Shown here: positions 1-62,095 of the stretch, piece by piece
Layout of the letters: the number at the start of each line of letters is the position of its first letter
Numbering within the stretch: the first letter of the stretch is position 1
From: Loxodes magnus
Taxonomy: Eukaryota > Ciliophora > Karyorelictea > Loxodida > Loxodidae
Length of the DNA: 64,000 nt
Assembly (NCBI GenBank): GCA_946699065.1
Contig: CAMPDV010000514.1
Location: 1-64,000 of the forward strand
Reading direction: 5' to 3'
Position numbers and translations under genes: made by a program
Notes under the pieces: generated by a model
What the model was told of the DNA's origin: nothing
Seen by the model: only the letters and a program-made list of their open reading frames with translations
The model's database searches: none

Positions 1-3000
1 TATTGGTCTTTAGTTTTCTGATGCATATAAGATTCATAAACATCACGTTATGTATTATTTATGCTATAAAGTATCTTTATTAAAGTAAGTTGGGCTATCT
101 TCAACCATAACATAGATCTAGAAGTTACTTTTAGGTTAGCTAAGTCAATTCCTTTTCTCATTTTAACCTTCCTTCATCTAATTACCATCTTAAGGAGGAT
201 GAACTGCTTATGATATTTAGGATATAGTTTTATTCATTTGCAGTCTAAGCATCTTTTTGAGCATTATATTGCAATAAAAGACTATAATGGATCAAATAGA
301 GATAATAGAAATGTAGCTGATAAAGAGACAAGATAGTCAAGAATAGTTTCTTCAGTGCTAAAAAACGTGAAAATGTATGAAATGAAATTTAAGAATAAAA
401 TACAGAAGTTAAAATAATGACCTACTAGATTTTCTTAAATTATATTAGGATCTTTATGCAAAATACTTCCTTATAGACATCCTAAACCTACTAAAACCGT
501 AAATCCAAAATCTTAGCCTAAACTTTTCTATTAAGTAGCAATTATAAGGTTTACCAGAAAGCATCATGAAGCAATAGCAAAATCTATATACAAAATGAAA
601 TTTTTTTTAGAGCTTAGAATTGAATCTTTAATCAAGGAACTGTCATGAAAAGATTAATTGTTCATTGGGATAATTTTGGCAGATTTAAAGAACTAAATAT
701 AAAGCTCTATCTAAATTTTCCTTTTTCTTTGACGTTACATGCAGAGTTATAAATATATAAATTGAAAAATATTAAACATAAAATTACTAATGATTAAGCA
801 GGAATTGGATGCTTATAACTTGATTAATTTCCATTATCCTCTCTTTTTCATTTAAGTCCAGTCCTAAGTTTGATTCTTCATAATTTTACATTTCTTTGTT
901 TCTCTCTTCTTAAATTTGATTCTCTTACCCTTGCTTTTCTTCATTTTATCCTCATTTTCTTATTCTTCTGCCTCTTATACAAGTGAAGTGAGTATAAAAA
1001 GTCCTGACTAACTACAATTTACACCTATAATAGTTAGCTAGTTGGATTTTTTCTATTGAGCATGAAGTTCCATTTTCTCATTTTTTTCGTTGATATCTCA
1101 CGATTGGCACACTAAATTTGAAGGTGTTTAAGTTTGGTTATAGCTTAGAACATATTCGACTTAGATTTTAAATTTCTTCAAATTATCCTTCTTATATAGA
1201 ATCTATCATTTCAGATATTTAGTAAACAGAAGATTTAAATGATGGATATAACTAAAATCATCCATTTCACATTAATTGCTTCTTCAAATAAAAAGATTAC
1301 AACAAAGCATCCTTTAATAACATTGAATAGCTTAGGAATTAGGCAGAGAAATTCCCATTACTATCATTATTTCTCCTTTAGAGTTTCAACGGTTGAGATC
1401 ATAAAAAAGAAAAGACTCTAGTCTCGTAACTCTTTTCTTTAGTAGGAATTTCTTTCTCCTTTCATAGAATAGAAGAATTATTTACAAGATTTATCAAATT
1501 TAGATTTTAGAAGTTTTATATGTAAAAGTATGATTATTTATATAGTTAAAGGTACTTCACCTAGTTATTAGACTAGGTTATACTTCTTGTTCAATGTTAA
1601 ATTTTATATATTAGAACTGTTTAATTATCTACGTAAGCAAAGACGTCTAATTTAAGGATATCTGGTACTTTGTTTGCTAGTTAAGACATTGGTAGATACT
1701 GTTTATATAACTCTGCAGGCTTTCAGATGCTACGTTTAGTTTTACTTCTTAGTAACTTGAAACTGCTATTGCCATCTATTCTTGCTTCTCTATTTTTTAG
1801 GATAGATATCATAAGAACTGTTTCATATCTAGAGGAGAAAAACTAAGAGTATTTAAATAACTTAAAGCTTTTAGTGCTAATTTCTTCGTCTAATTTAAAG
1901 GAAATTCATTATAGAATGATCCCATGCAAAAGAACTGGCATCTTAAGGAATAATCTTCATCTAAATCAATAGCATCATCACACTTTAGACTAAATAAGGT
2001 ATCTCATGCTTTTCCTTTTTGAGAGCTCACTATAAAATTTTCAACTTGAGGAGCTCTGTAAATATAGATTATTTTTGGTTAGTACACTTGATCACTCCTT
2101 ATACTTCAAAAATAAATGTATGGTAATTTCCTTACTCAAGTTCTTATGCCTTAATTTATATAAACAATTTAGTGACAAAGAAGGTAGCAGATTATCAAAA
2201 TCTACCAGAACTTTGGTATCAAGAAACTGTCTTTATATCTACACTTGAATTAGAAGCAACTCTATACATTATAAAAAATTAGATGGATTTATTTTGCTAT
2301 ATTCATTATTCTGTATCATTATAGCCACTGGAGATACCTTATTATTGGTTATATTTAATTACACTTTATCAGAGGTTTATCTTTGTTTGTTGAAATAGAC
2401 GCGTACATCAAGTTCTAAGAATGCTCATACTAGAAATTACTATCCTTATAACGTAATGGAAGATGTAAAGAAATTATACTTATCTTCTACTTCTTTTTTG
2501 ATTGCCTCATTATATGAAGTCTATTTTTAGTTTATAGCTTAACAATTTCATTCAAATCTTAATTCTTCACTAGGACTATCAATCGCTATTATAAACAATG
2601 TGCAGTTATCCTACAAATCATCACTCTATACTCAATACCAGATATATAAACCTTCATCGTCTTAGTTAAACTAAAGTATAAGAAGATTAAAATTTTCATT
2701 TTACCAGAAATTTAAAATAAGAAAATTACAAATTAGACCTTCATAATGCTATCTAAGTATCTTAATTTGAATCTTTAAGTCTAAAACTATTTTACTTAAT
2801 GTCTTTTTGATGAGTTAGAGATTCTATTAGTTAGTAATATTCTGTTTTTCTAAAGCTTTTAAGTAGATCCTTAATAGAAATACCAGTGTCATTAAAGTCT
2901 ACTAATTTTGCCTCTGAGATATATTTTTGTAATGTCTTTGAAGTTTGATATCATTTAAAATATGAGATCAGTTTAGATATGTTAATGTGGATCTGAAATT

Positions 3001-4205
3001 ATTGAAGAGTTAAAGTCGAGAGAATTAGAAAATTTGGTTAGAAGCATGGAAGTTAACGATAATAGCATTAAGGATAAAGACTAGCATGACAACATTTTCA
3101 TCAAGTGCTAGATAGTAGTAGGGTAAATAAAAAGCAAAAGCAATCTCTTCCTTCTCCTCCTGTAGTAGGAAGAAGTAAATCCTTCCAAAATATTTTTGGA
3201 AAGATTTCTACCTTCGGAAGCTTCAGCTAAATTATTGGCTTTAGAATAGATTATTCGATTTTTTTTCCTTCAGCAAAATTTATTCTTAATTAGGAAGGCT
3301 TCAATTCCATAACGCTTTGAGGTATAATACAAAGCTGAGGTAGCAAAAATAAAGCAAAAAGATCTGCTTCACGCTTGATAATAAGAATTGACAAACTAAT
3401 GAGGCAAGCTTCGAATTGCAAGAAGAAGAACGATGCTTTGTATGCTAATAGGTGAAGTTTCGACATTACCTTGCATGGTTGTTTCCAGATTGATGCATAA
3501 TGGCTTTTATTTTAAAGAAATAAATAAAAATATAAAATAGATTCTACACTTACTTCTGCTTAAATTATCTACTATTAATTATCTTAAGATATAAGATGTG
3601 CCATTTATTATTCCTAAAAGTCTTTCTTCTAGTTAGAATAATGAGCTAACTTTTTATATCAGCTTCTAAATAAATCAACCTCTCTCTTTAATCTATTAAC
3701 TTTAAATTATCTTATCTTTTCATTTGGTCTCTCATCTCTGAGGTATAGGTTTGGACATTATATATAAATGTTGTAAATAGAAAAAGAAATTAAAAAGGCT
3801 AGCTTAGTAGACTTAATAAAATAATTAAGTAGCAAAATAATCCTTTAGAAAGCTACTAATTATACTAAAAGTATATCCTTCCTATTATAAGTAAAAGCAT
3901 TATAAATAGATAACTATTATTAGTATACAAAAGCTATGATAGTAGCAATATTGATTGCATTAAAGTTCTAAATGATAGACTACATGAGTATAGATAGATA
4001 GTGTTAATATGATATGGATTAAAATGAATTAACTAATAGCTAAATGTTTAATTAAGTTAATATATGAATTCTTAATTTAGAAAAGCTTCTTAGCTTTAGA
4101 CTAGTATAGTAACTATCTAATTATTAATAACTTATTATTTTCTTAAGCTTTAGAATTAAACATAAATAGATTTAAACTATTTAATTCACTTTCATTATAA
4201 TCAAT
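1..4205. other. Region without a recognised gene
   Basis: No domain, RNA or repeat family was recognised here. Some stretches look protein-like when TAR is read as Gln and TGA as Trp: about 283-650 plus strand (for example KSIYKMKFFLELRIESL), about 860-990 minus strand (Lys/Glu-rich), and about 2140-3110 plus strand (hydrophobic segments, then an acidic end such as EELKSRELENLVRSME). Since all frames are open under this code, these remain weak suggestions. The segment 3150-3480 is somewhat richer in GC, with several GAAGCTTC-like words. 3500-4200 is simple AT-rich sequence that serves as the 5' flank of the RING gene. Confidence 0.3.
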
Positions 4206-6912
4206 ATGGCTGAATCTAACAGGTGCAGCTCATGCTTAGTTCATTTCGACTCTTAAATACGAATTCCAGTAACCCTTCCTTGTGGACATCAAGTATGCCA
4301 AATTTGTATTCTTGAAGAATACTTAAGAGAGGGTTCTTATCAGTGCCCAAAAAGAAACTGTAGAAAAGTTTCATTTAATGATCCAAAAAGTTTAATAAAC
4401 TAAAAGGGCTAATCAAGTGAAAGTAAATAAGAATATAAATAACTTCATCTTGAAGAAACTAAAATTGAACTATCTTATTAGCAGAAACCGAAACTAATAA
4501 AAGTCAAGATTTTAAGTGAAAATGAAGAAGAGATAAACTTAACAGTAGAGGAAGGAGAAACAATTGAATAACTGAAATAAAAAGTAGAAAGACTAGAAGG
4601 AATTGACGCTGATTTTTATGAACTTTATAGAGGATAAGAAAAATTAGATAGTTAGCATAAAATAAATAAAATGGAGAATAGAGATGAGGTTTAGCTAGAA
4701 TTAAAATTGAAGGCTTGTAATTAATATAAATTTAAGGAGGTGAGAAAATAAGATTTAGAAGGTAAAAAATAAAGATAGAAAGTAATTAATAAAAAATTAG
4801 TTTTCGAGATAATGAGAAAATAATATGGTAAATAATATAATAATAGAATGTAAATAATAATAAAAATTAGAAAGTATTAAATAATCAAAAATAGGAGAAA
4901 GTAAGAAAATTTAAAAAAGGCTAAAATGACTTCGAAAAAAGTTAGAAATAAATGTATAGGAGGTAAATTTTAAAAAAGCGTGTAATATATTTAACAAAGT
5001 GAGTAATACTTTAAAAACTAGAAAGTAATAAATAAAATTTAAGAATGTAATAAAATAAATAAGATTGTAAGAATACTAAGAAAGGGAGTAATAATTAAAT
5101 ATAGAATGTAAAAAATAAAAAAGATTGTAAAATAATTATGTTAAGATGGTAATTTAACAAATCCAGAAAGTAAATTATTTAATATATAGCAAGTAAAAAA
5201 AAACAAATAAAGGAGGTAAAAATTAAAATAAGATGGTATTTCTATTTAAAATAGAATGTAAGATATTTTAATTATTTATAGATTGTAAGATATTTTAAAT
5301 ATTTAAAGGGAGTAAGATATTTTAAATATTTATAGATGGTAAGATATTTTAAATATTTATAGCGGGTAAGATATTTTAAATATTTATAGCGGGTAAGATA
5401 TTTTAAATATTTATAGATTGTAAGATATTTTAAATATTTATAGATGGTAAATATTTTAAATATTTATAGAATGTAAGATATTTTAAATATTTATAGTGAG
5501 TAAGATATTTTAAATATTTATAGAATGTAAGATATTTTAAATATTTATAGATGGTAAGATATTTTAAATATTTATAGTGAGTAAGATATTTTAAATATTT
5601 ATAGATTGTAAGATATTTTAAATATTTATAGAATGTAAGATATTTTAAATATTTATAGATTGTAAGATATTTTAAATATTTATAGAATGTAAGATATTTT
5701 AAATATTTATAGATGGTAAGATATTTTAAATATTTATAGTGAGTAAGATATTTTAAATATTTATAGATTGTAAGATATTTTAAATATTTATAGAATGTAA
5801 GATATTTTAAATATTTATAGTGAGTAAGATATTTTAAATATTTATAGTGAGTAAGATATTTTAAATATTTATAGATGGTAAGATATTTTAAATATTTATA
5901 GTGAGTAAGATATTTTAAATATTTATAGATGGTAAGATATTTTAAATATTTATAGTGAGTAAGATATTTTAAATATTTATAGAATGTAAGATATTTTAAA
6001 TATTTATAGAATGTAAGATATTTTAAATATTTATAGTGAGTAAGATATTTTAAATATTTATAGTGAGTAAGATATTTTAAATATTTATAGAATGTAAGAT
6101 ATTTTAAATATTTATAGTGAGTAAGATATTTTAAATATTTATAGTGAGTAAGATATTTTAAATATTTATAGAATGTAAGATATTTTAAATATTTATAGTG
6201 AGTAAGATATTTTAAATATTTATAGATGGTAAGATATTTTAAATATTTATAGTGAGTAAGATATTTTAAATATTTATAGAATGTAAGATATTTTAAATAT
6301 TTATAGAATGTAAAATATTTTTTATAGACAGTTTGTATTTAAAAACTATTATAGCTAGTATTTTTTTATTATTATAAGAGGGTATTAAATTACCTCAGGC
6401 GGTAAGAATCTACTTCAGGTACCTTTTTAATTTTTGATTGTAAGAAATAATTATAAGATGGTTTTGATTTTATTGAAGCTAGTATTTGCTTATATGAGCT
6501 TGTATTATTTAACCTAAGTTAGTAATAAAATGATATAGAATGTAATATTATTAATATTTATAGGGGGTAATGATTTATTTGAAAAGAAAGTAATGCCTAA
6601 TATAATTGATTAAAGAATGTTATAGTAATGATTAATATTAGATTATTTATACTAGGTAGTTATTTTTCTATTTTAGGATGTAAATAATTTAATGATAAGT
6701 AAGTTTTTGATTATAGAGGGTAATTTTTGATATAAACAGAGATGGAAAAACATTTAACAGCTTTAAATATTTATCTTAAATTAATGCTTAATTATTAATT
6801 AATTTCTAATTTAGATACTTTAGTTATTTTAAAGTTACTAAACACATTAGCATTATATTTTAAGATCTTTGCTAACTTTCTTGCTTTTTTCACTTTATTG
6901 ATGAAAAATTGA
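4206..6912 (+). CDS. RING + ubiquitin-like protein gene with ~80 mini-introns and mostly 3-nt exons
   Basis: Exon 1 (4206-4716) encodes a C3HC4 RING finger at residues 7-53 (CSSC, then CGHQVCQIC, then CPKRNC). It also encodes a ubiquitin-like fold at about residues 99-168 (IKVKILSENEEEINL ... LELKL). This suggests a ubiquitin-ligase-type protein. From 4717 to 6739 the sequence alternates GTA...AG segments with exons of exactly 3 nt. Four interior exons are longer: 27 nt (4801-4827), 6 nt (4895-4900), 21 nt (4920-4940) and 21 nt (6419-6439), all multiples of 3. By my parse there are 80 introns and 75 triplet exons. Removing them in phase 1 gives a protein-like product (EEIFEIMRKQYEQRESQ, DFEKRALKKYWKYYE). 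The final exon (6740-6912) is in phase, starts MEKHLTALNIYLKLM and ends at TGA 6910-6912, for 328 codons including the stop. The domains are firm; the splicing is inferred from sequence only. Confidence 0.72.
4717..5257 (+). other. 5' arm of the micro-exon region: 23 diverged mini-introns
   Basis: Twenty-three consecutive GT...AG segments of 16-21 nt have unrelated interiors, so this is not a simple tandem repeat. They are separated by GAG, AAG, AAA, (27 nt), AAT, AAA, (6 nt), (21 nt), GAG, CGT, TGA, AAA, AAT, ATT, GGA, AAT, ATT, ATG, AAA, CAA, GAG, ATG and AAT. Many intron lengths (16, 17, 19, 20) are not multiples of 3. A continuous reading would therefore lose register with the pattern, while every exon length keeps phase. 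Almost all introns start GTA; two start GTG or GTT. This arm is the best evidence that the pattern is splicing rather than repeat expansion. Confidence 0.7.
5258..6309 (+). repeat. 27-nt tandem array, 39 units: invariant 24-nt segment + variable triplet
   Basis: Thirty-nine head-to-tail units start at 5258. Each is a 24-nt segment (GTAAGATATTTT ... ATTTATAG) plus 3 nt. The 24-nt part is virtually identical throughout, apart from small variants in the first two units and one unit (5447) that is 1 nt short. The triplet varies among only six words: ATT, GGA, ATG, CGG, AAT and TGA. Read straight through, the array is a 9-residue peptide repeat (QDILNIYR + 1). The 26-nt unit at 5447 would shift that reading for the remaining 31 units. 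As GT-AG introns it has no effect. The segment lies inside the micro-exon gene, and the same AG-NNN-GTA layout continues on both sides in unrelated sequence. Confidence 0.95.
6310..6739 (+). other. 3' arm of the micro-exon region: 18 diverged mini-introns
   Basis: After the homogeneous array the pattern continues with non-identical GT...AG segments of 14-26 nt, one reading as 37 nt at 6619-6655. The triplet exons are ACA, CTA, AGG, GCG, ATG, CTA, CTT, TTA, AAT, GGG, AAA, AAT, GTA, GAT, TAA and AGG, with one 21-nt exon at 6419-6439. The spliced phase-1 product includes TFLIFDYATFKWEKY. The parse is least certain at 6616-6660, where several GT and AG pairs compete. Confidence 0.6.
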
Positions 6913-8340
6913 TTCCTATTAAGGAGATGTTGGAATTAGTAATTAAGGTAATATTTTGATAATAGCTATAGTTTTTTAGCTGATGTATTAAATTTCTTGA
7001 TAGTAGTTGTTTGATTTTGAAATAATGTCTAGAAGTGTTAATTTGATATCCTTTCTATTAATTTTTAAAATAGATTTAGTAATTTTTAAAGATAATATGT
7101 AATGATCTAATATAGTCTCTACAAAATGTGTGTTTATGAATTATAAAATAGTTAGTTTAAATAATAGTAAATAAGCATGTAGTTAGTTAGTTTGATCTAG
7201 TTATGGCTGTGTAATAAAATGTTAAAGTGTTACTGAGATATTGCTGCTGGTATTTTAAAAATTTGGAATAGATAAGTATTTAATTTATAATCTATGTAAT
7301 AATATGATTAAAGCAGATGTAAGAATTTAGCTTATATAATGATTGTTATTATAAACTACTACTTGGATATGATTAATTTGAATTACTAATATTATAACAC
7401 ACAGTCTATACTTTATAACCCTATTTTATATTCTAATTTAATATATTAACTACTTATTTTTACCTATTTATTAATATCCTCTATCTATATCTTCTATTTT
7501 ATTTAATCTACTAATATTATTAGTAAGATTTCTCTAGTTTAATACTATTAAGATGTAGTGTACTCTTAAACTACTTTATTTACATATTTTATTATTAACT
7601 TCTAATTTATGTCTATAATCAGAGTTATTTATTTCTATTATCATTTCAAATCTTAAGTACACTCTAAAATTATATTATATACTAAATTATTACTAGACAT
7701 CAATCAAATCAGTTACCAACAAGTGTAATTGATAAGGAAAACTAGAAAATGGTATTTTGATTTTAAAAGTATAATATAGCATAATATAAAAGTAAACATT
7801 ATAAACAATATAAATAACTAATAATCTAGCTAACCCTTTATAAATATAATAACAAAACATATCCTTAATTCAATTCAAAACACTATCATTTCCTTAATAT
7901 ATCCTAACAACATTATCACTCAAAAACTATCTAATAGACTCAATTTTATATTACTATTCAATTCATCAAAATCTTATTTTTCAAACTCAACTAGTCAGTC
8001 ATAGATCAAAAACTTATTATCAACCTAAACATTATTTATATTATCCAATAAACCTCTTATCAAGCAAAAGACTAACTATTTTAACTATCAATTACGAAAA
8101 AGATATATATATAAAAAATAACAAAAATCAAACCCTAAAATTTTAAGTTCGGATTTAAACGAAAAAATTATAACATTTTTATAAATTGTTGTGAAGATAA
8201 AGTAAGAAAATAAGCAATTAAAAAAGTAAATCAACTAAAAATCGGAAATTCAAAAGGTAAACTTCTAGCAAAAGTAAATAGAAGATAGACTAAATAATTA
8301 AATTATATTAGCAATTAATAATCTAGAAAAATTAAAATAA
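6913..8340. other. Intergenic AT-rich DNA with a G-depleted block
   Basis: No gene was recognised. From about 7790 to 8085 the plus strand is rich in A, T and C but almost free of G, like the blocks at 25,780, 33,660 and inside the RING-kelch gene. The block sits just upstream of the unknown gene at 8341. Confidence 0.5.
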
Positions 8341-11289: not shown

Positions 11290-13390
11290 TTAAAAAAATA
11301 TTATAGAGCGCGTAGCACTACAATAACGCACAGCTCTTTAATTAAAGTTCTTAAAAGTTTAAAAACGTATTATATTACATTCTTCCCTGTGCTAGCATTC
11401 CTTGGAAATTCTTGTCTCCTATAGAATCAATGTCGGAGTACTTCCCTAAAGAGACCTTATTCTTAGGCATCGTTCAACATATTGTTACTTGATGCCTCGG
11501 TCTTGAAATCCTTGACTCCTGCCAAGATTCTTTTTCAGGTTTTTACACGGGTACTTCCTGGTACCCAATGTCTTAATGAAGCACCCTCTATATATTCTAT
11601 CTTCTCATATGGTAATTTTCAATTTTATTATTATATAATTTACTTCCAATTCCTGATATCAACCAACAATTGTCAACACTTAATGACAAACTACCTACAG
11701 AATCCGTATAATCCTGTAAAGCTAAGATACATTCCCCAGTTGAGAGCTTTCATATCTTAATTGTTTCATCTTCAGAACCCGATATTAAATACTTATTGTC
11801 CGATGATAGAATTACCGATTCTACATATCCTTTGTGACCTTAAGAGTACGAATTAGCTAACCAGTTAAGAAAGAGCAGATCTTTATAGAAGAGTCACCAG
11901 ATGCTGATACAATATAGTCAGAGTCTAGGGAGATACCAACCGAGAAAACTAAAGATGATTGACCAGTCAAAGTTCTTAGGAGAGTACCATTGTAGAAATT
12001 CCAGATCTTTATGGAGTAGTCAAAGGATGCTGATTCAATATAGTTGGAGTCTAGGGAGATAACTACGAGTTAATGTCAGAAGTATGTCCAGTTAAAGTTC
12101 TTAGGAGAGTACGATTGTGGAAATTCCAGATTTTTTGGTTTCGTCACCAGATGCTGATACAACACAAAAAAAATTTGGGGAGATAGCTAGGGGGGTAATG
12201 TAGTTGGAATGACCAGTTATGATATAAGGCTACTCAGTAATGATGTTAGTAAGGTTAGTATTAGAAAGGCTACATTTAACAAATTTAGTATTTTGTAAAT
12301 TGCATTGCTAGAAGATAGTGTTGCCGAAATTGCAGTTAGTAAATATCGCATCTGATAGACCAGCTTGAATTCAATTTAAGTTTGCAAAATTCTATTGATT
12401 TATTTGAACTTTCATGTAAATGAGTATAGTTATAACATTGGATAATTCTTACGACAACTTTTACGATTATTTAGATAACTCTATTAACTAAAATAATATT
12501 TGCCCGATATTATAGTCTTTCGATGAGGATAATTATAATAATACTGAAGCTTTCTCTGATAAATTAGATTGATTCAATGGATTTTACCTCAATTATTAGA
12601 TATCGATATTTTATTGTAGTAATTGATTCAATATTTGCTGTAATTAGTAAAATGTTAGGTTATTAATAATTGCTGATATTATATTTATTAAATTTGGATA
12701 TTCTTGTAATTAAATAAAAGTTCTTTTTTCATTTAAATAATTTTACTTTTACCATTAAACAAATTATTCAGATTTAATTTAAATAATACTTAAAAAAAAT
12801 TTTCTTAAATTTGATTCTAACTAAGAGGATATTCTTGGCCTATGGCTCTATCTTAATAAGAACGATTTATAATTTATTATTATTACTAAGAGACTTAATA
12901 TTATTAGTTTAATTAATTTTAAGGGTGATCTTACACTTGTGCTATTTATAGATTCTATTATCTTTTACTATTGCATAAACCTCTTATCATACTATCCTAA
13001 TTGAAATAAGCTTATGTTAACTATTTTACTTTTTGCTAAGTCAATAACTGATTATAAGTTATCCCTAGTTATATCATTATATTGAAGAATATTCTTAAAT
13101 ATTTACTCTTAAGCTTTAAAATATTCAAATCTAACTCTTAACGGTTCTTTAACTCATTTATCTCTCTCAAGATCCCATTTAAATACTCTTATCTTTGCTG
13201 AATTAATTGCTGTCTCTTGAGTTGATTCTAAGGATTGATATTTTAGAGCTATTAGAAGTTCGTTTCTAATTATTCTATTCTGATAATTCCTAGCTATTTA
13301 TTTTCAATTTTTTATCTTATGAATTAATCATCAGGTATTCAATTTTTCTTTCGAGTTTATGATTTCAAGTGTATAGCAACTACTAAAATG
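11290..13390 (-). CDS. Pentapeptide-repeat + WD40 protein, frame-broken
   Basis: Read on the minus strand from about 13,390. An N-terminal region has no recognised domain (KWDLERDKWVKEPLRV, YFKAQEQIFKNILQYND, SVIDLAKSKIVNISLF). It is followed near 12,400-12,230 by pentapeptide repeats (AIFTNCNFGNTIFQQCNL, TKFVKCSLSNTNL). Then come WD40 blades (SGDSSIKI; YLISGSEDETIKIWKLSTG with TGA as the WD Trp). After the blades comes a C-terminal segment (YQEVPV, EKESWQES, KYSDIDSIGDKNFQGMLA) shared by four other fragments in the window, ending KELCVIVVL. Pentapeptide plus WD40 is a known scaffold or sensor layout in STAND-type proteins, but no NTPase motif was recognised. At least two or three frame changes are needed, so it is probably a pseudogene. 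Confidence 0.6.
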
Positions 13391-23287: not shown

Positions 23288-23820
23288 ATGAAATTCTGCC
23301 CAACTTATGTTATTAAAAACTTATAAAAAAGATTATTTATGACCAAAGTAAAGGTATTTCTTTAATATTTTATAGACTAAATCCTTACTGGTCACACTTA
23401 ACGTGTTTGATCGGTATCCATATCAAGTGACCTGAATTGAATTGTATCAGGTTCAGGAACTCCTGAATATTCGATAAAGATCTGGAATTTCCAGACAGGT
23501 GCTCTCCAAAGAACTTTAACGGGACATACTTCATAAGTTTACTAGGTAGTAATCTCCCCTGATTCTAGCTATATAGTATCAGGATCTGGAGATTCAACCA
23601 TAAAGATCTGAAATTCATAGACTGGTTCTCTCATAAGAACTATAACAGGACATACTGATATAGTTAGATCGATAGTAATCTCCTATGACTCTAGATATAT
23701 TATATCGGGATCTTACGATGAAACTATAAATATTTGGGATTTCTAGACTGGTCAGCTTGTTAAATAAAATTAATTTAAAGAGCTGCTTACCAACGAGAGT
23801 GCTACTCGTTCTATAATCCA
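23288..23820 (+). pseudogene. WD40-repeat gene fragment (three blades)
   Basis: From ATG 23,288: a short leader, then three WD40 blades: WIVSGSG ... SIKIWNFQTGALQRTLTGH; YIVSGSGDSTIKIWNSQTG (W from TGA); YIISGSYDETINIWDFQTG. WD40 proteins need about seven blades, so this is a fragment. The GTTTGA of copy 1 (Trp) is GTTTGG in copy 3. It ends FKELLTNESATRS over a hairpin (AACGAG-AGTGCTA-CTCGTT, 23,790-23,808). The tail that normally follows blades in this family is instead found on the opposite strand just downstream. Confidence 0.75.
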
Positions 23821-26656: not shown

Positions 26657-27282
26657 TTTAAATTTCCTTTTCATTAAATACAGCCATTTTTATAAAAGCA
26701 AGGTTGAATATTTGCAAACTTATGATAATTAAATTTGCCAGTTGTAAAATAATAAAAATGAATATAAATTTGTATTTAAGCTTAATAATGTTAGAAAGTA
26801 TATGGATGTTTACTATATACATTAAAAGTATTAATAATAAGAAAATGTAGAATAAATTTATAATTGTAAAGCTATATTTTATTTAATAAATTATTGTATA
26901 TAAATATTTTTTTATTTAAATATAAAAAGCAATAATTTAAGTTGTTAATACTAATCAAATATTCAAATATTATCCTTAGTTTAATATCTTATTTTCAATA
27001 TACAATCAACCTGTCTCTAGTTTATTCAATCATAGCTTTTAATTTTAGTCTATCACTTTTATGCATATTATTATTTTATACATTTCTAGATCAAACAATC
27101 CAATTCCTAATTTTTACCTATCATTTTCTTATAACTCATTTATTCCCCAGCAGAACCAGCTGATACAAGTATATGAACTAAAGGTACTAGAGTAACTAAA
27201 ATAACTAAAGTATCTTACTAAAAGTAAGTAAAGCAAATAAGGAGAGTAAAAACCCTGTAGAGAGATAGATCAGATAACCATG
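26657..27282. other. Spacer between gene C and the LSU fragment
   Basis: AT-rich. Contains a 232-bp stretch (about 26,857-27,088) that is present in copies 1 and 3 but absent from copy 2 (junction near 41,457). The last 140 bp, up to the LSU fragment, are less AT-rich. Confidence 0.5.
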
Positions 27283-28200
27283 GAAAAGTCTTAGTAGATC
27301 ATAAGGCAAGCTTACTCTTATGTGTACTACCCCATGTCAATGTTTATTGGTCTACAAAGGATCTATGCTTTCTGCTTGTATGTGATTAATCATCCTTATT
27401 CTGTTAACAGAAATGAGGAGAGCTTGGAGATATAAAAAATATTGTTTTCATAAGTTGATAGAAAGCATCGCTCCCAGTTTAGATTCTGACTTAGAGACAT
27501 TCAGTCATAATCTATACAGATGGTAGCGTAACCAAAAGGCTGTTCAACCAATGGCGATACCAGAGATCTGGACCAATGGTTTCTCTCGTACTGAGTTGGA
27601 TTATTATGGGCGATGCAGTGATCAATACAGTAAAATTAAACTGGTTCACTACGGTCTAAACCCAGCTTACGTTCTCTTTTGACAGATGAACAATACGACA
27701 CTTGGTGAATTCAGCTTCACAATTATAGGAAGAACCGACATCAATGAATCAAAAGGCAACGGCGCTATGAACGCTTGGCTGCCACAAGTCAGTTATCCAT
27801 GTGGTAATTTTTCTGACACCTCTGGCTTAAAACTCGTAAAAGACAAAGGATTGATAGGCCATGATTTCCCAGTTCATCCTGACACTGAGAGGTTGAATGA
27901 AGCCAGCGTTTCTCCTTTTGGTCTGTGAGCGGTTTCTGTCCGCTTTGAGTTGGCTGTAAGACACCTGTGTTATTTTTTAACAGATGTGCCACCCCAGTCA
28001 AACTCCCTACCTGGCGGTTTCTCCCATCCAGTTACATTGCTAGAAAGTTTCTGTATCCGCTCTTGGTAGAAGCTTGAAGCCTGAGCGCTCATATCGATGG
28101 AGATCCCTAGCAGCTGTGCCTAGAGCACAACAGGATATCCCCGTTATTCTATAAAAAGAGAGCGTCGGGTCGTGCAATCGGAAAGAGCTTGCGGTCCAAA
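27283..28200 (-). pseudogene. Large-subunit (28S) rRNA 3'-domain fragment, antisense, copy 1
   Basis: The plus strand is the complement of the conserved LSU 3' third. It includes the peptidyl-transferase-side segments (complement reads CACTTGGTGAATTC, GCTATGAACGCTTGGC, CAGTTATCC), the helix near TTTTAACAGATGTGCC, the sarcin-ricin loop complement at 27,578-27,595 and the 3'-end motif near 27,288. Only about 0.9 kb of the LSU is present. The sarcin-ricin loop reads AGTACGAGAGAAAC instead of AGTACGAGAGGAAC, and invariant CCCTGTGG is CCATGTGG. It is therefore a relic rather than a working rRNA gene. Apparent ORFs over it are not proteins. Confidence 0.9.
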
Positions 28201-41262: not shown

Positions 41263-41664
41263 TTTAAATTTCCTTTTCATTAAATACAGCCATTTTTATA
41301 AAAGCAAGGTTAATATTTGCAAAATGATGATAATTAAATTTGCCAGTTGTAAAATAATAAAAATGAATATAAATTTGTATTTAAGCTTAATAATGTTAGC
41401 AAGTATATGGATGTTTACTATATATATTAAAAGTATTAATAATAAGAAAATGTAGAATAAAAAGATCAAGCAATCCAATTCCTAATTTTTACCTATCATT
41501 TTCTTATAACTCATTTATTCCCCAGCAGAACCAGCTGATACAAGTATATTAACTAAAGGTACTAGAGTAACTAAAATAACTAAAGTATCTTACTAAAAGT
41601 AAGTAAAGCAAATAAAGAGAGTAAAAGCCCTGTAGAGAGATAAAGAAGAGATAGATAGGGTAAT

Positions 41665-42143
41665 CATGGAAAAGTCTTAGCAAATCATAAGTCAAGCTTA
41701 CTCTCATACGTACAACCCCAGGCCAATACTTAGTGGTCTACAAAGGATCTATCCTATCTGCTTGCATGTGATTAGTCGTCCTTATTATGTTAACAGAAAT
41801 GAGGAGAGCTTGGGATATAAAAAATATTGTTTTCATAAGTAGATAAAAGGCATCGCTCCCAGATTAGATTCAGATTTAGAGATGTTCAGTCATAATCTAC
41901 GCAGATGGTAGCGTAACCAAACGGGCTGTTTAGCCAATGGCGATACCAGAGATCTGGAACAACGGTTCCTCTCGTATTGAGTTTTATTACTATGGCAATG
42001 CAGTAATTAATACAGTAAAATTAAACTGGTTCACTACGGACTAAACTCAGGTCACATTTCTTTTTGACGGATGAGCAATAGAACACTTGGTGAATTCAGC
42101 TTCACAATGATAGGAAGAACCGATATCGACGAATCAAAAGGCA

Positions 42144-42192
<49 letters not shown>

Positions 42193-42585
42193 TTTTTCTG
42201 ACACCTCTGGCTTAAAACTCGTAAAAGGCAAAGGATCGATAGGCCATGGTTTCCCAGTTCATTCTGAAACTGAGAGGTTGAATGAAGCCAGCTTTTCCCT
42301 TTTTGATTTGTGAGCGGTTTCTGTCCCATTGAGTTAGCCGTAGAATACCTATGTTATCTTTTAACAGATGTGCCGCTCCAGTCAAACTCCCTACCTAGCA
42401 GTTTCTCCCATCCAGTTACATTGCTAGAAAGTTTCTGTATCCGCATTTGGTAGGGGCTTGAAGCCTGGCTGCTCATAGCGATGGAGCTCCCTAGCAGCTA
42501 TGCCTGGAGCACAACAGGATATCCCCGTTATTCCATAAAAAGAAAGCGTCGGGTCGTGCAATCGGAAAAAGTTTGCGGTACAAAA
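41665..42585 (-). pseudogene. LSU rRNA 3'-domain fragment, antisense, copy 2
   Basis: Same extent as the copy at 27.3-28.2 kb. The sarcin-ricin loop complement (about 41,964-41,981) carries a different change (sense AATACGAGAGGAAC). It differs from copies 1 and 3 at scattered sites including normally invariant ones, so it is non-functional. Confidence 0.9.
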
Positions 42586-57157: not shown

Positions 57158-57700
57158 ATGAAATTCTGCCTAACTTATGCTACTAAAAGTTAACAAATAA
57201 GATCAGTTATGACCAAAGTAAAGGTATTTCTTTAATATTTTTTAGACAGAGCCCTCACTGGTCACATTTCTTCTGTTTGGTCGGTATCCATATCAAGTGA
57301 CCTGAATTGAATTGTATCAGGTTCATCATATCCTGAATATTCGACAAAGATCTGGAATTTCCAGACAGGTGCTCTCCAAAGAACTTTAACGGGACATACT
57401 TCATAAGTTTACTAGGTAGTAATCTCCCCTGATTCTAGCTATATAGTACCAGGATCTGGAGATTCAACCATAAAGATCTGAAATTCATAGACTGGTTCTC
57501 TCATAAGAACTATAACAGGACATACTGATATAGTTAGATCGATAGTAATTTCCTATTACTCTAGATATATTATATCGGGATCTTACGATGAAACTATAAA
57601 TATTTGGGATTTCTAGACTGGTCAGCTTGTTAAATAAAATAAAATAAATTTAAAGAGCTGCTTACCAACGAGAGTGCTACTCGTTCTATAATCCAATTTA
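57158..57700 (+). pseudogene. WD40 gene fragment, copy 3
   Basis: Three blades as at 23,288-23,820 (ALTGHISSVWSVSISSD; YIVPGSGDSTIKIWNSQTG; YIISGSYDETINIWDFQTG), with TGG where copy 1 has TGA in 'VWS'. The same hairpin and KELLTNESATRS end follow, then the opposite-strand tail fragment. Confidence 0.7.
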
Positions 57701-60552: not shown

Positions 60553-61175
60553 TTTAAATTTCCTTTTCATTAAATACAGCCATTTTTATAAAAGCAAGGT
60601 TAATATTTGCAAAATGATGATAATTAAATTTGCCAGTTGTAAAATAATAAAAATGAATATAAATTTGTATTTAAGCTTAATAATGTTAGCAAGTATATGG
60701 ATGTTTACTATATACATTAAAAGTATTAATAATAAGAAAATGTAGAATAAATTTATAATTGTAAAGCTATATTTTATTTAATAAATTATTGTATATAAAT
60801 ATTTTTTTATTTAAATATAAAAAGCAATAATTTAAGTTGTTAATACTAATCAAATATTCAAATATTATCCTTAGTTTAATATCTTATTTTCAATATACAA
60901 TCCTACCTGTCTCTAGTTTATTCAATCATAGCTTTTAATTTTAGTCTATCACTTTTATGCATATTATTATTTTATACATTTCTAGATCAAACAATCCAAT
61001 TCCTAATTTTTACCTATCATTTTCTTATAACTCATTTATTCCCCAGCAGAACCAGCTATACAAGTATATGAACTAAAGGTGCTAGAGTAACTAAAATAAC
61101 TAAAGTATCTTACTAAAAGTAAGTAAAGCAAATAAGGAGAGTAAAAGCCCTGTAGAGAGATAGATCGGGTGACCA

Positions 61176-62095
61176 TGAAAAAGTCTTAGCAGATCATAAG
61201 GCAAGATTACTCTCATTCGTACAACCCCAGGTCAATGTTTATTGATCTACAAAGGATCTATGCTTTCCGCTCGAATGTGATTAGTCGTCCTTATTATGTT
61301 AGCAGAAATGAGGAGAGCCTGGGGTTATAAAAAATATTGCTTTCATAAGTAGATAGAAGATATCGCTCCCAGATTAGATTCTGACTTAGAAACGTTCAGT
61401 CATAATCTATGCAGATGGTAGCGTAACCAAAAGGCTGTTCAACCAATGGCGATACCAGTGATCTGGACCAACGGTTCCTCTAGTACTGAGTTGGATTACT
61501 ATGGCGATGCAGTGATCAATACAGTAAAATTAAACTGGTTCACTACGGTCTAAACCCAGCTCACATTTCTTTTTGACGGATGAGCAATAGAACACTTGGT
61601 GAATTCAGCTTCACAATGATAGGAAGAACCGATATCGATGAATCAAAAAGCAACGTCGCTATGAACGCTTGGCTGCCACAAGCCAGTTATCCCTGTGGTA
61701 ATTTTTCTGACACCTCTGGCTTAAAACTCATAAAATATAAAGGATCGATATGCCATGATTTCCCAGTTCATCCTGACAATGAGAGGTTGAATGAAGTCAA
61801 CTTTTCTCTTTTTGGTCTGTGAGCGGTTTCTGTCCGCTCTGAGCTGGCTGTAGGACACATGTGTTATCTTTTAACAGATGTGCCGCTCCAGTCAAACTCC
61901 TTACCTGGCGGTTTCTCCCATCCATTTACATGGCTAGAAAATTTCTGTATCCGCTCTTGGTAGAAGCTTGAAGCCTGGCTGCTCATAGCGATGGAGATCC
62001 CTAGCAGCTGTGCCTGGAGCACAACAGGATATCCCCGTTATTCAATAAAAGAGAGCGTCGGGTCGTGCAATCGGAAAAAGTTTGCGGTCCAAAAA
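61176..62095 (-). pseudogene. LSU rRNA 3'-domain fragment, antisense, copy 3
   Basis: Same extent as copies 1 and 2. The sarcin-ricin loop complement (about 61,473-61,490) has yet another change (sense AGTACTAGAGGAAC). The three copies thus decayed independently. Confidence 0.9.

Follow-up and report, generated by a model that had tools for sequence, protein, structure and literature searches.

Some 80 exons in a chain, almost all a single codon long, as the probable structure of a RING protein gene of Loxodes magnus

Can a part of a protein be encoded by exons that comprise a single codon each? This question is raised by positions 4206 to 6912 on the forward strand of a 64,000-nucleotide stretch of Loxodes magnus DNA, which is named the window in the following. 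The region begins with an exon of 511 nt (exon 1, 4206..4716), which ends in phase 1. A parser favouring 3-nt exons divided the adjoining sequence (4717-6739) into 80 GT..AG segments of 14-37 nt; the internal exons between them have 3 nt (76 cases), 21 nt (two cases), and 27 nt (one case). If positions 4895-4900 are cut as a 6-nt exon, this parse agrees with the first-pass annotation, which had listed about 80 mini-introns and 75 three-nucleotide exons with exceptions of 6, 21, 21, and 27 nt. The 5' arm (4717..5254) contains 23 introns, which differ in their interiors and have 16-21 nt (the first parse gave 16-24 nt). In the central array (5255..6309), 39 near-identical introns GTAAGATATTTTAAATATTTATAG alternate with 3-nt exons, forming a tandem repeat of period 27. 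The 3' arm (6310..6739) has 18 introns of 14-37 nt, again with differing interiors, and 3-nt exons; it is followed by the last exon (6740..6912). According to the best reading, to which we assign a probability of roughly 0.8 on the basis of sequence comparisons, these would be real one-codon exons, i.e. a chain of about 80 exons combining tiny spliceosomal introns with an intron-codon repeat. No second chain of one-codon exons was seen in the window, and a Pfam search of its 20 other open frames gave one match only, which was under its cut-off.

Exon 1 contains a RING finger (aa 7-49) and a ubiquitin-like stretch (aa 98-164). Two RING models scored over the Pfam cut-off (PF13445, 26.2 vs 25.2; PF00097, 24.6 vs 21), and both ubiquitin models stayed under it (PF00240, 23.9 vs 25.4; PF14560, 19.5 vs 23.1). 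Of the previously proposed RING plus ubiquitin-like exon, the first half is thus confirmed and the second is a resemblance only. The PDB matches of exon 1 were ubiquitin chains and RING chains. The product would be a RING / ubiquitin-like protein, probably an E3 ubiquitin ligase. No relative elsewhere passed the threshold of E 0.001 with exon 1 (44 candidates) or that of E 0.1 with the joined product (305 candidates); Pfam added no further family over cut-off for the joined product, and the array pattern was not found in viral contigs.

In the assembly, the gene belongs to a family with at least 151 matches. An independent estimate was derived from the pattern AGNNNGTA-N9..17-AGNNNGTA, which occurs 22,537 times in the genome and 15,506 times in the reversed control; dividing the excess of 7,031 by 24 per copy, as calibrated in 21 copies, gives ~293 copies. 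A family of this size (~290 copies) can by itself account for the excess of AGNNNGTA patterns. Among the 100 places listed for this pattern (contigs C1-C2), nothing beyond two overlapping matches was found; further gene families with a one-codon-exon structure may exist beside the RING family. A value of 800-890 loci, computed from unit counts, was discarded because it is inflated by contigs consisting mostly of array. That the central kilobase repeats a unit of one intron and one codon in tandem, and that the family has considerably more than a hundred copies, had not been mentioned in the first-pass annotation.

In order to judge the three-nucleotide register, we used a parser which gives no bonus for 3 nt or for multiples of 3 and charges only a small penalty for each exon base. 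For the window, it proposed exons of exactly 3 nt at 72 of the 79 internal positions and multiples of 3 at 77 of 79, which bears out the claim that segments of 14-37 nt are separated by spacers of nearly always exactly 3 nt. For the copies L061, L062 (to the end of its stretch), and L064, the number of 3-nt spacers was 64/73, 71/79, and 64/67, respectively. Only 30 of 100 Markov shuffles of the window were parsable; these gave a mean of 4.2 (maximum 8) 3-nt exons among ~52, and with shuffles of another of these sequences the mean was 4.5. The motif AG-N3-GT occurs 20 and 17 times in the two arms, as compared with averages of 2.3 and 1.7 and at most 8 and 9 occurrences among 5000 Markov controls, and every other AG..GT spacing of 0-15 nt is found 0-4 times.

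The segments resemble the known introns of the organism. RNA-mapped introns of L. magnus have a mean length of 19.3 nt and a mode of 17 nt, 93% have at most 25 nt, those below 16 nt are negligible in number, and lengths divisible by 3 are relatively depleted (PMC11441545). The candidate introns of the window fit the reported sizes: 77 of 80 have 16-25 nt, the other three 14, 26, and 37 nt. Multiples of 3 make up 5 of 23 lengths in the 5' arm and, with 24 nt, 38 of 39 in the array. The lone 14-nt intron lies below the 16-nt mark. GC content is 24-29% in the microexons, 5-12% in the intron interiors, and 30% in exon 1. All 80 segments have GT..AG ends, which is no test by itself, as the parse requires them. 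Independent support comes from the constraint on AG across copies: in 1174 array units, the acceptor A and G were substituted once each (0.09%), and other intron sites showed values of 0.8-10%. (These counts, like the TGA counts below, are based on 21 arrays and a consensus with three free places; letterless spacers were not counted.) Acceptors are strongly constrained across copies; donors are no more constrained than interiors, both in the 3' arm and in the array (1.4% and 3.5%).

Indels within the introns of the copies are mostly not multiples of 3; indels in exon 1 are restricted to -3 and +6. Of 41 other copies, 39 retain the spliced frame (with insertions at an intron border assigned to the intron), in agreement with the proposal that exon phase is kept despite arm introns of non-multiple-of-3 length. 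L051, L061, L062, and L066, among them distant copies with diverged introns, have every one of the 23 introns of the 5' arm at its place. (L064 and L066 are two halves of one locus; for L041, L049, and L052, positions were set by coordinates.) Compared with L061 and L062, intron lengths of the window differ by a non-multiple of 3 at 10 and 11 of the 23 places and by a nonzero multiple of 3 at one place each, whereas exon lengths are identical but for one 3-nt difference. The exons of the 5' arm have 3 nt, save three. The 27-nt exon (4801..4827) is of equal length in L061, L062, and L066. The 6-nt exon GAGAAA (4895..4900), which may also be read as a 3-nt AAA, is the parser's own cut for L051 and L062; in the window copy, L061, and L066, the cut is possible and was set by hand. 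The 21-nt exon (4920..4940) has the same length in L062 and L066 and 24 nt in L061 (cut by hand). In the 3' arm, a 21-nt exon (6419..6439) is the sole longer one.

The peptide predicted by joining these exons is conserved. In all six pairs formed by the window copy, L061, L062, and L066, the excess of similarity was highest in phase 1 (z values 2.85, 3.74, 2.65, 2.89, 2.33, and 1.62); phase 0 reached at most 1.82 and phase 2 at most 2.25. Phase 1 is also the phase fixed by the RING exon, and the result is consistent with the earlier view that the phase-1 product is protein-like. Note that hand-cut exon lists were used, here and in the comparison of intron places, for the window, L061, and L066 (the 6-nt exon, and in L061 the 24-nt exon, to which the parser gave 12 nt), that the 21/24-nt exon was omitted for pairs with L061, and that joining the arms or skipping this exon creates artificial codons. 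Individual comparisons are less distinct, with p 0.059 for L061 versus L066, p 0.08 for the window versus L051, and p 0.54 and 0.63 for the 11-codon 3' comparisons with L064. The joined 3' arm peptide TFLIFDYATFKWEK is similar in L061 and L062/L065. One tryptophan codon of the window, TGG, is replaced by TGA in L061 and L062, which is synonymous in the Loxodes code, where UGA is ambiguous and can mean Trp (PMC11441545). Among close copies phase 1 is not singled out (17 synonymous and 71 nonsynonymous changes in phase 1; 26 and 67 in phase 0). TGA in phase 1 of the arrays occurs 6 times in 1127, little below the mean of 7.7 in order shuffles, and in L061 phase 1 is not the lowest phase for TGA. 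L063 could not be parsed into the conserved product and was excluded from the pair tests for this reason. For the window copy, the predicted spliced peptide DEYWNAADYELK spans many exons.

An intronless copy was searched for with the joined arm peptides, which is a weak test due to the shortness of the queries. None was found: the 5' arm peptide gave two chance matches at E 3.79, and the 3' arm peptide gave 15 matches at E 0.3-0.9, of which 14 begin at query residue 18-20 and thus represent essentially the last exon alone. The odd match, C2358, proved on reading to be an ordinary family member.

For the last exon, the first-pass annotation had proposed 56 codons joined in frame and ending in TGA. 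This is doubtful, because most of the 16 aligned copies (of 21 long sequences; five did not pass the length filter) differ in acceptor and frame. At the site of the acceptor, which is AAG in most copies, the window copy reads AAA, and shortly after it is one base shorter; an acceptor 2 nt downstream would restore the usual frame of the family. The annotated frame is thus probably not that of the family, and in the window copy it is uncertain.

Within the central array, each repeat unit combines a variable codon with an intron of 24 nt: 38 of 39 introns have 24 nt and one has 23 nt, TRF reports period 27 and 39.7 copies for 5251-6321, and in a wraparound alignment all 38 spacers have 3 nt. Across copies, arrays comprise 8-137 units. 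As 24 is a multiple of three and the unit lacks TGA in phase 1, a retained array intron leaves the frame open, so that a frame could persist even with the array unspliced. This is the basis of the strongest rival, according to which the arms are real one-codon exons and the array is an in-frame minisatellite, often retained or randomly spliced. The variability of the array donors, equal to that of the interiors, would suit this explanation, as would 4-nt spacers in some arrays adjoining exon-1 matches (C894, C919, C414, C381). Contigs C3735 and C4030 contain stretches made up of array alone, in which AGs are lost and spacers drift, and these too are in its favour. Against it speak the near-invariant AG of the 21 arrays, the genome-wide number of units with a 3-nt spacer (27,444, with 7 in the reversed control, versus 109 with 4-8 nt), and the register of L061, L062, and L064, which is kept with diverged introns, many of them of 23 nt. 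We consider this rival unlikely, though it deserves more credit than those below.

The region 4717-6739 might also be a single large intron, or a non-coding tail containing a minisatellite in decay, with AG-NNN-GT as a repeat relic; this agrees with the tandem repeat of the array. Arms with length-changing introns nevertheless retain their 3-nt exons and all 23 places, and the joined peptide is best in phase 1 in every pair; we rejected the single intron on this conservation of the arms. Moreover, an intron of 2 kb would be an outlier, since 93% of mapped L. magnus introns have at most 25 nt (PMC11441545). This makes the idea very improbable. Still less credible is translation of the unspliced region as a protein of 9-residue repeats. 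Long frames remain open because TAA and TAG are sense codons, and the frame 4068-6437 is indeed open for 789 codons (table 6), but 31 of 41 other copies are off the unspliced frame of the window (10 retain it), with about two thirds expected by chance. On these frame counts it was rejected; in our reading of the substitution table, the unit also has no clear 3-base period. The last candidates are IESs, stretches of germline DNA that are excised from the somatic genome and are common in the phylum of the ciliates, to which the host belongs. This reading has next to no probability and was rejected on assembly type, as the segments are present in an assembly of 705.73 Mb, which by its size is presumably macronuclear (L. 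magnus macronuclear 706 Mbp, micronuclear 848 Mbp) and would lack IESs, and the L. magnus study states that canonical IESs were not found (PMC11441545).

The reading as single-codon exons thus gains support from frame counts, acceptor constraint, intron places, and the phase-1 peptide. By exon length and phase-1 peptide conservation, the candidate exons would be compatible with microexons (<=30 nt), internal coding exons that are spliced in frame into the mRNA. The 3-nt microexon of mouse Ncam is isolated among ordinary exons and not part of a chain. Like the exons of the window, this microexon, named in PMC8042270, consists of a single codon. The MEG genes of Schistosoma mansoni also have many very short exons (3-81 bp), but their 10-20 short exons are separated by introns of 100 to almost 5000 bp (PMC10526429), as compared with ~80 exons and introns of 14-37 nt in the window. 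Introner-like elements and intron gain by tandem duplication resemble the array in that near-identical introns exist in many copies and a segment with splice sites is duplicated; in contrast, array copies lie in tandem at 3-nt spacing within a single gene family, and a codon is part of each unit. With the introns described for L. magnus, those of the window share the short GT..AG type, mostly of 16-25 nt, and the ambiguous UGA (PMC11441545). The main text of that study is without the terms microexon, 3-nt, and minisatellite, and the study is not known to describe one-codon chains or intron-codon repeats; its introns were mapped with Hisat2 (PMC11441545), which presumably could hardly place 3-nt exons.

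If the preferred reading holds, the C-terminal part of the RING protein would be encoded by ~80 exons, nearly all of one codon, and spliceosomal introns of about 16-24 nt would be removed by intron definition. The arms would be old one-codon exons forming a conserved peptide. In the array, which may have grown by unit duplication, gain or loss of units would add or remove single amino acids, the codon differing between copies while intron and register stay nearly fixed. A bolder version, which we hold only tentatively and at somewhat less than even odds, is a gene built codon by codon, with ~50-180 splicing events per mRNA on ~20-nt introns. Its array would be a generator of single-residue diversity: identical introns would recombine and thereby reshuffle the free codons with the frame untouched, so that the variable segment would differ among hundreds of RING proteins.

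If confirmed by RNA, the structure would mark an extreme of how finely genes can be split. It would imply that there is no practical minimum exon length when introns are recognised as units, that a spliceosome can handle chains of tens of one-codon exons or longer ones, and that nature offers a test of intron definition at its limit. The tandem repeat of intron plus codon would make intron number a polymorphic trait. Finally, gene finding would have a blind spot for such genes, as they would largely escape short-read aligners and could be classed as low-complexity repeats by repeat annotation.

Exon 1 (4206-4716) encodes 170 residues and contains a RING finger scoring over two Pfam cut-offs, together with a ubiquitin-like stretch that lies under the Pfam cut-offs. 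Downstream of it, 80 GT..AG segments follow in series up to position 6739, separated by spacers that are nearly all 3 nt long. A parser without gain for 3 nt or multiples of 3 assigned exactly 3 nt to 72 of the 79 internal exons, in agreement with the first-pass annotation, which had proposed about 80 mini-introns with mostly one-codon exons. Among 100 Markov-shuffled controls, 30 were parseable, with a mean of 4.2 3-nt exons. The chain consists of a 5' arm (4717-5254; 23 introns, their interiors unlike one another), a central array (5255-6309; 39 nearly identical introns, period 27) and a 3' arm (6310-6739; 18 introns, interiors again differing). In the window, the GC content is 24-29% for the predicted microexons, 5-12% for intron interiors and 30% for exon 1; no second chain of such exons was seen across these 64 kb.

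The exon 1 family has at least 151 matches (74-94% by the search measure) in the searched assembly of 705,730,643 bases, a lower bound given that 150 of 2,764 candidates were scored. For comparison, 51 sequences were used: the window, 30 exon-1-match loci, one of which is the window's own place, and 20 further loci; 42 of these, including the window, are distinct across exon 1 and the 5' arm. Relative to the window, exon 1 of the 41 other copies has no indels other than -3 and +6; the microexons show one +1, one -1 and larger deletions covering whole units, and the 5'-arm indels are mainly intronic and mostly of 1, 2, 4 or 5 nt. Summed over exons, the indels give a multiple of 3 in 39 of the 41 copies; summed over exons and introns together, they do so in 10 of 41 (chance: about 14). 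The rows behind these counts are not independent because many copies are near-identical. The spliced frame is kept in those 39 copies; the first-pass annotation had noted phase keeping in the window alone. The exceptions, copies L031 and L034, may be pseudogenes; copies L048, L052 and L055 have an intact spliced frame despite large deletions. In many long copies (e.g. L045, L046, L048, L050, L053, L055, L060), similarity to the window stops at about 7891-7914, as would be expected at the border of a mobile element or duplicated block.

Minority alleles in the 5' arm (42 sequences) amount to 0.152 each in the GT and AG columns, 0.456 in interiors and 0.676 in microexons; the values for the 3' arm (16 sequences) are 0.059 for AG, 0.265 for GT, 0.295 for interiors and 0.261 for microexons. 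In 21 arrays with about 1,175 units, the A and the G of the acceptor were each substituted once in 1,174, the two donor positions in 1.4% and 3.5%, and other intron sites in 0.8-10%. Acceptors are constrained in the 5' arm, the array and the 3' arm, donors clearly in the 5' arm only.

Distant copies are L061 (contig C77, 486.5 kb), L062 with its 3' part L065 (contig C4), L066 with its 3' part L064 (C77, 505-508.8 kb; a single locus in two stretches) and L063 (contig C52). The L063 parse yields no conserved product, and this copy looks decayed. The introns of the other three are unlike those of the window and unlike each other; the 3-nt register is still kept. All 23 intron places of the 5' arm are identical in the window, the close copy L051, L061, L062 and L066, with the exon cuts partly set by hand. 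Comparing the window with L061 and L062, intron lengths differ by a non-multiple of 3 in 10 and 11 of 23 cases and by a nonzero multiple in a single intron per pair; identity to the window is 0.82 (L061) and 0.75 (L062) in exons and 0.76 and 0.69 in intron interiors. Array matches on C77 recur at about 487.9, 507.8, 528.1 and 547.3 kb, i.e. at intervals of about 20 kb; L061 and L066/L064, the two C77 loci read, are remote members of the family whose introns have diverged.

Exon 1 ends in phase 1, and in this phase the joined 5' arm spells EEIFEIMRKQYEQ..RALKKYWKYYETRDE (window), NEVFETLRQQYEQ..RVLKKYWQYFETRDE (L061), KEIFKEMRLLYEK..RALKKFWRYFEIRDE (L062) and DEIFQNLRKKYEK..RVLKKYWQYIETREE (L066). 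Against a null that places the same substitutions at random, the similarity excess was highest in phase 1 for all six pairs of these four sequences, which share members (z = 2.85, 3.74, 2.65, 2.89, 2.33, 1.62; in the same order p = 0.0020, 0 of 3000, 0.0017, 0.0010, 0.0103, 0.0587); phases 0 and 2 reached z values of up to 1.82 and 2.25. This result favors the protein-like phase-1 product suggested previously. Window versus L051 was not significant (p = 0.08), and counts within close copies did not favor phase 1. The joined 3' arm reads TFLIFDYATFKWEK (window), IFLILDYALFKWEK (L061) and IFLRFDYIYFKWEK (L062/L065); window versus L061 alone gave p = 0.019, and the short 3'-arm comparisons with L064 were not significant (p = 0.54, 0.63).

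At the 3' end, the first-pass annotation probably does not match the family: its proposed last exon (6740-6912; ACAG acceptor, 56 codons, TGA) departs from the phase-1 frame of most of 16 aligned copies. In most of these, the last intron can end in AAG, and the following exon reads in phase 1 about (S/A)E(M/I)(D/E)ITF..FKYLSQ, as taken from the alignment. The window copy has AAA at this place and one base fewer shortly after; a candidate acceptor 2 nt further on would preserve the family frame.

Across the 21 arrays, the 24-nt intron is almost identical, the 3-nt exon occurs in 43 forms with a vocabulary specific to each array, and 1,148 of 1,153 spacers holding any letter are 3 nt long. Genome-wide, the array pattern was found 27,444 times with a 3-nt spacer (reversed control: 7) and 109 times with spacers of 4-8 nt (reversed control: 1). 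Among 100 longer-spacer places listed, some lie directly downstream of exon-1 matches (contigs C894, C919, C414, C381), and C3735 and C4030 are among the contigs bearing others. Three stretches read on these two contigs (L070-L072) consist of nothing but the intron-codon unit. On C3735 (51.6 kb) the unit is present in both orientations; 4-nt spacers occur there, homopolymers hold extra bases and AGs are lost, as though the sequence were misassembled or no longer coupled to a gene. TGA accounts for 6 of 1,127 array codons in phase 1, 121 of 1,148 in phase 0 and 83 of 1,127 in phase 2. The number expected in phase 1 is 7.7 from order shuffles and 14.4 from independent bases; the rarity of TGA there thus resides mostly in the codon vocabulary. 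In phases 0, 1 and 2, TGA occurs 2, 3 and 6 times in L061, 5, 1 and 5 times in L062, and 1, 1 and 3 times in L064. Since phase 1 stays open through a 24-nt intron that is retained, the array cannot break the frame, spliced or unspliced.

Elsewhere in the window, the minus strand carries the same 3' portion of a large-subunit rRNA gene (model positions 2391-3399) three times, at 27267-28150, 41653-42534 and 61162-62044. One short tandem repeat recurs alongside (25322, 39929, 59197), a copy of it lying about 2 kb from each rRNA segment; speculatively, this could be a mobile element that carries rDNA sequence. In tandem repeats of period 125-126 nt (11876-12219, 23474-23752, 57346-57622), no Pfam family was found in the three open frames tried.

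According to PMC11441545, the L. magnus macronuclear assembly comprises 706 Mbp, 231 Mbp of it low-complexity tandem repeats, and introns mapped by RNA-seq have a mean of 19.3 nt and a mode of 17 nt, 93% being at most 25 nt long and those below 16 nt negligible. The words microexon, 3-nt and minisatellite are absent from its main text. A 3-nt exon has long been known in mouse Ncam (PMC8042270), and in schistosome MEGs long introns separate 10-20 short exons (PMC10526429). A search of titles and abstract openings, which took in few subscription papers and few if any bioRxiv preprints, found no report of one-codon-exon chains or an intron-codon tandem repeat.

We propose that the arms represent old one-codon exons and that the array may grow or shrink through exchange or duplication of intron-codon units. 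Each intron would be spliced out by intron definition, and each array unit would add or remove one residue of the protein. The codon is far more variable than the intron: either splicing selection, together with homogenization, holds the intron and leaves the residue unconstrained, or selection favors differing residues. With respect to the genetic code, the window is compatible with TAA and TAG as Gln, and UGA means Trp or stop in L. magnus (PMC11441545). At one Trp codon the window has TGG where L061 and L062 have TGA, a change that is synonymous only if TGA encodes Trp. In 39 of 42 copies the exon after the first splice junction (4716-4739) begins with GA, so that the junction creates TGA (T|GA); if the gene is expressed, this TGA must mean Trp.
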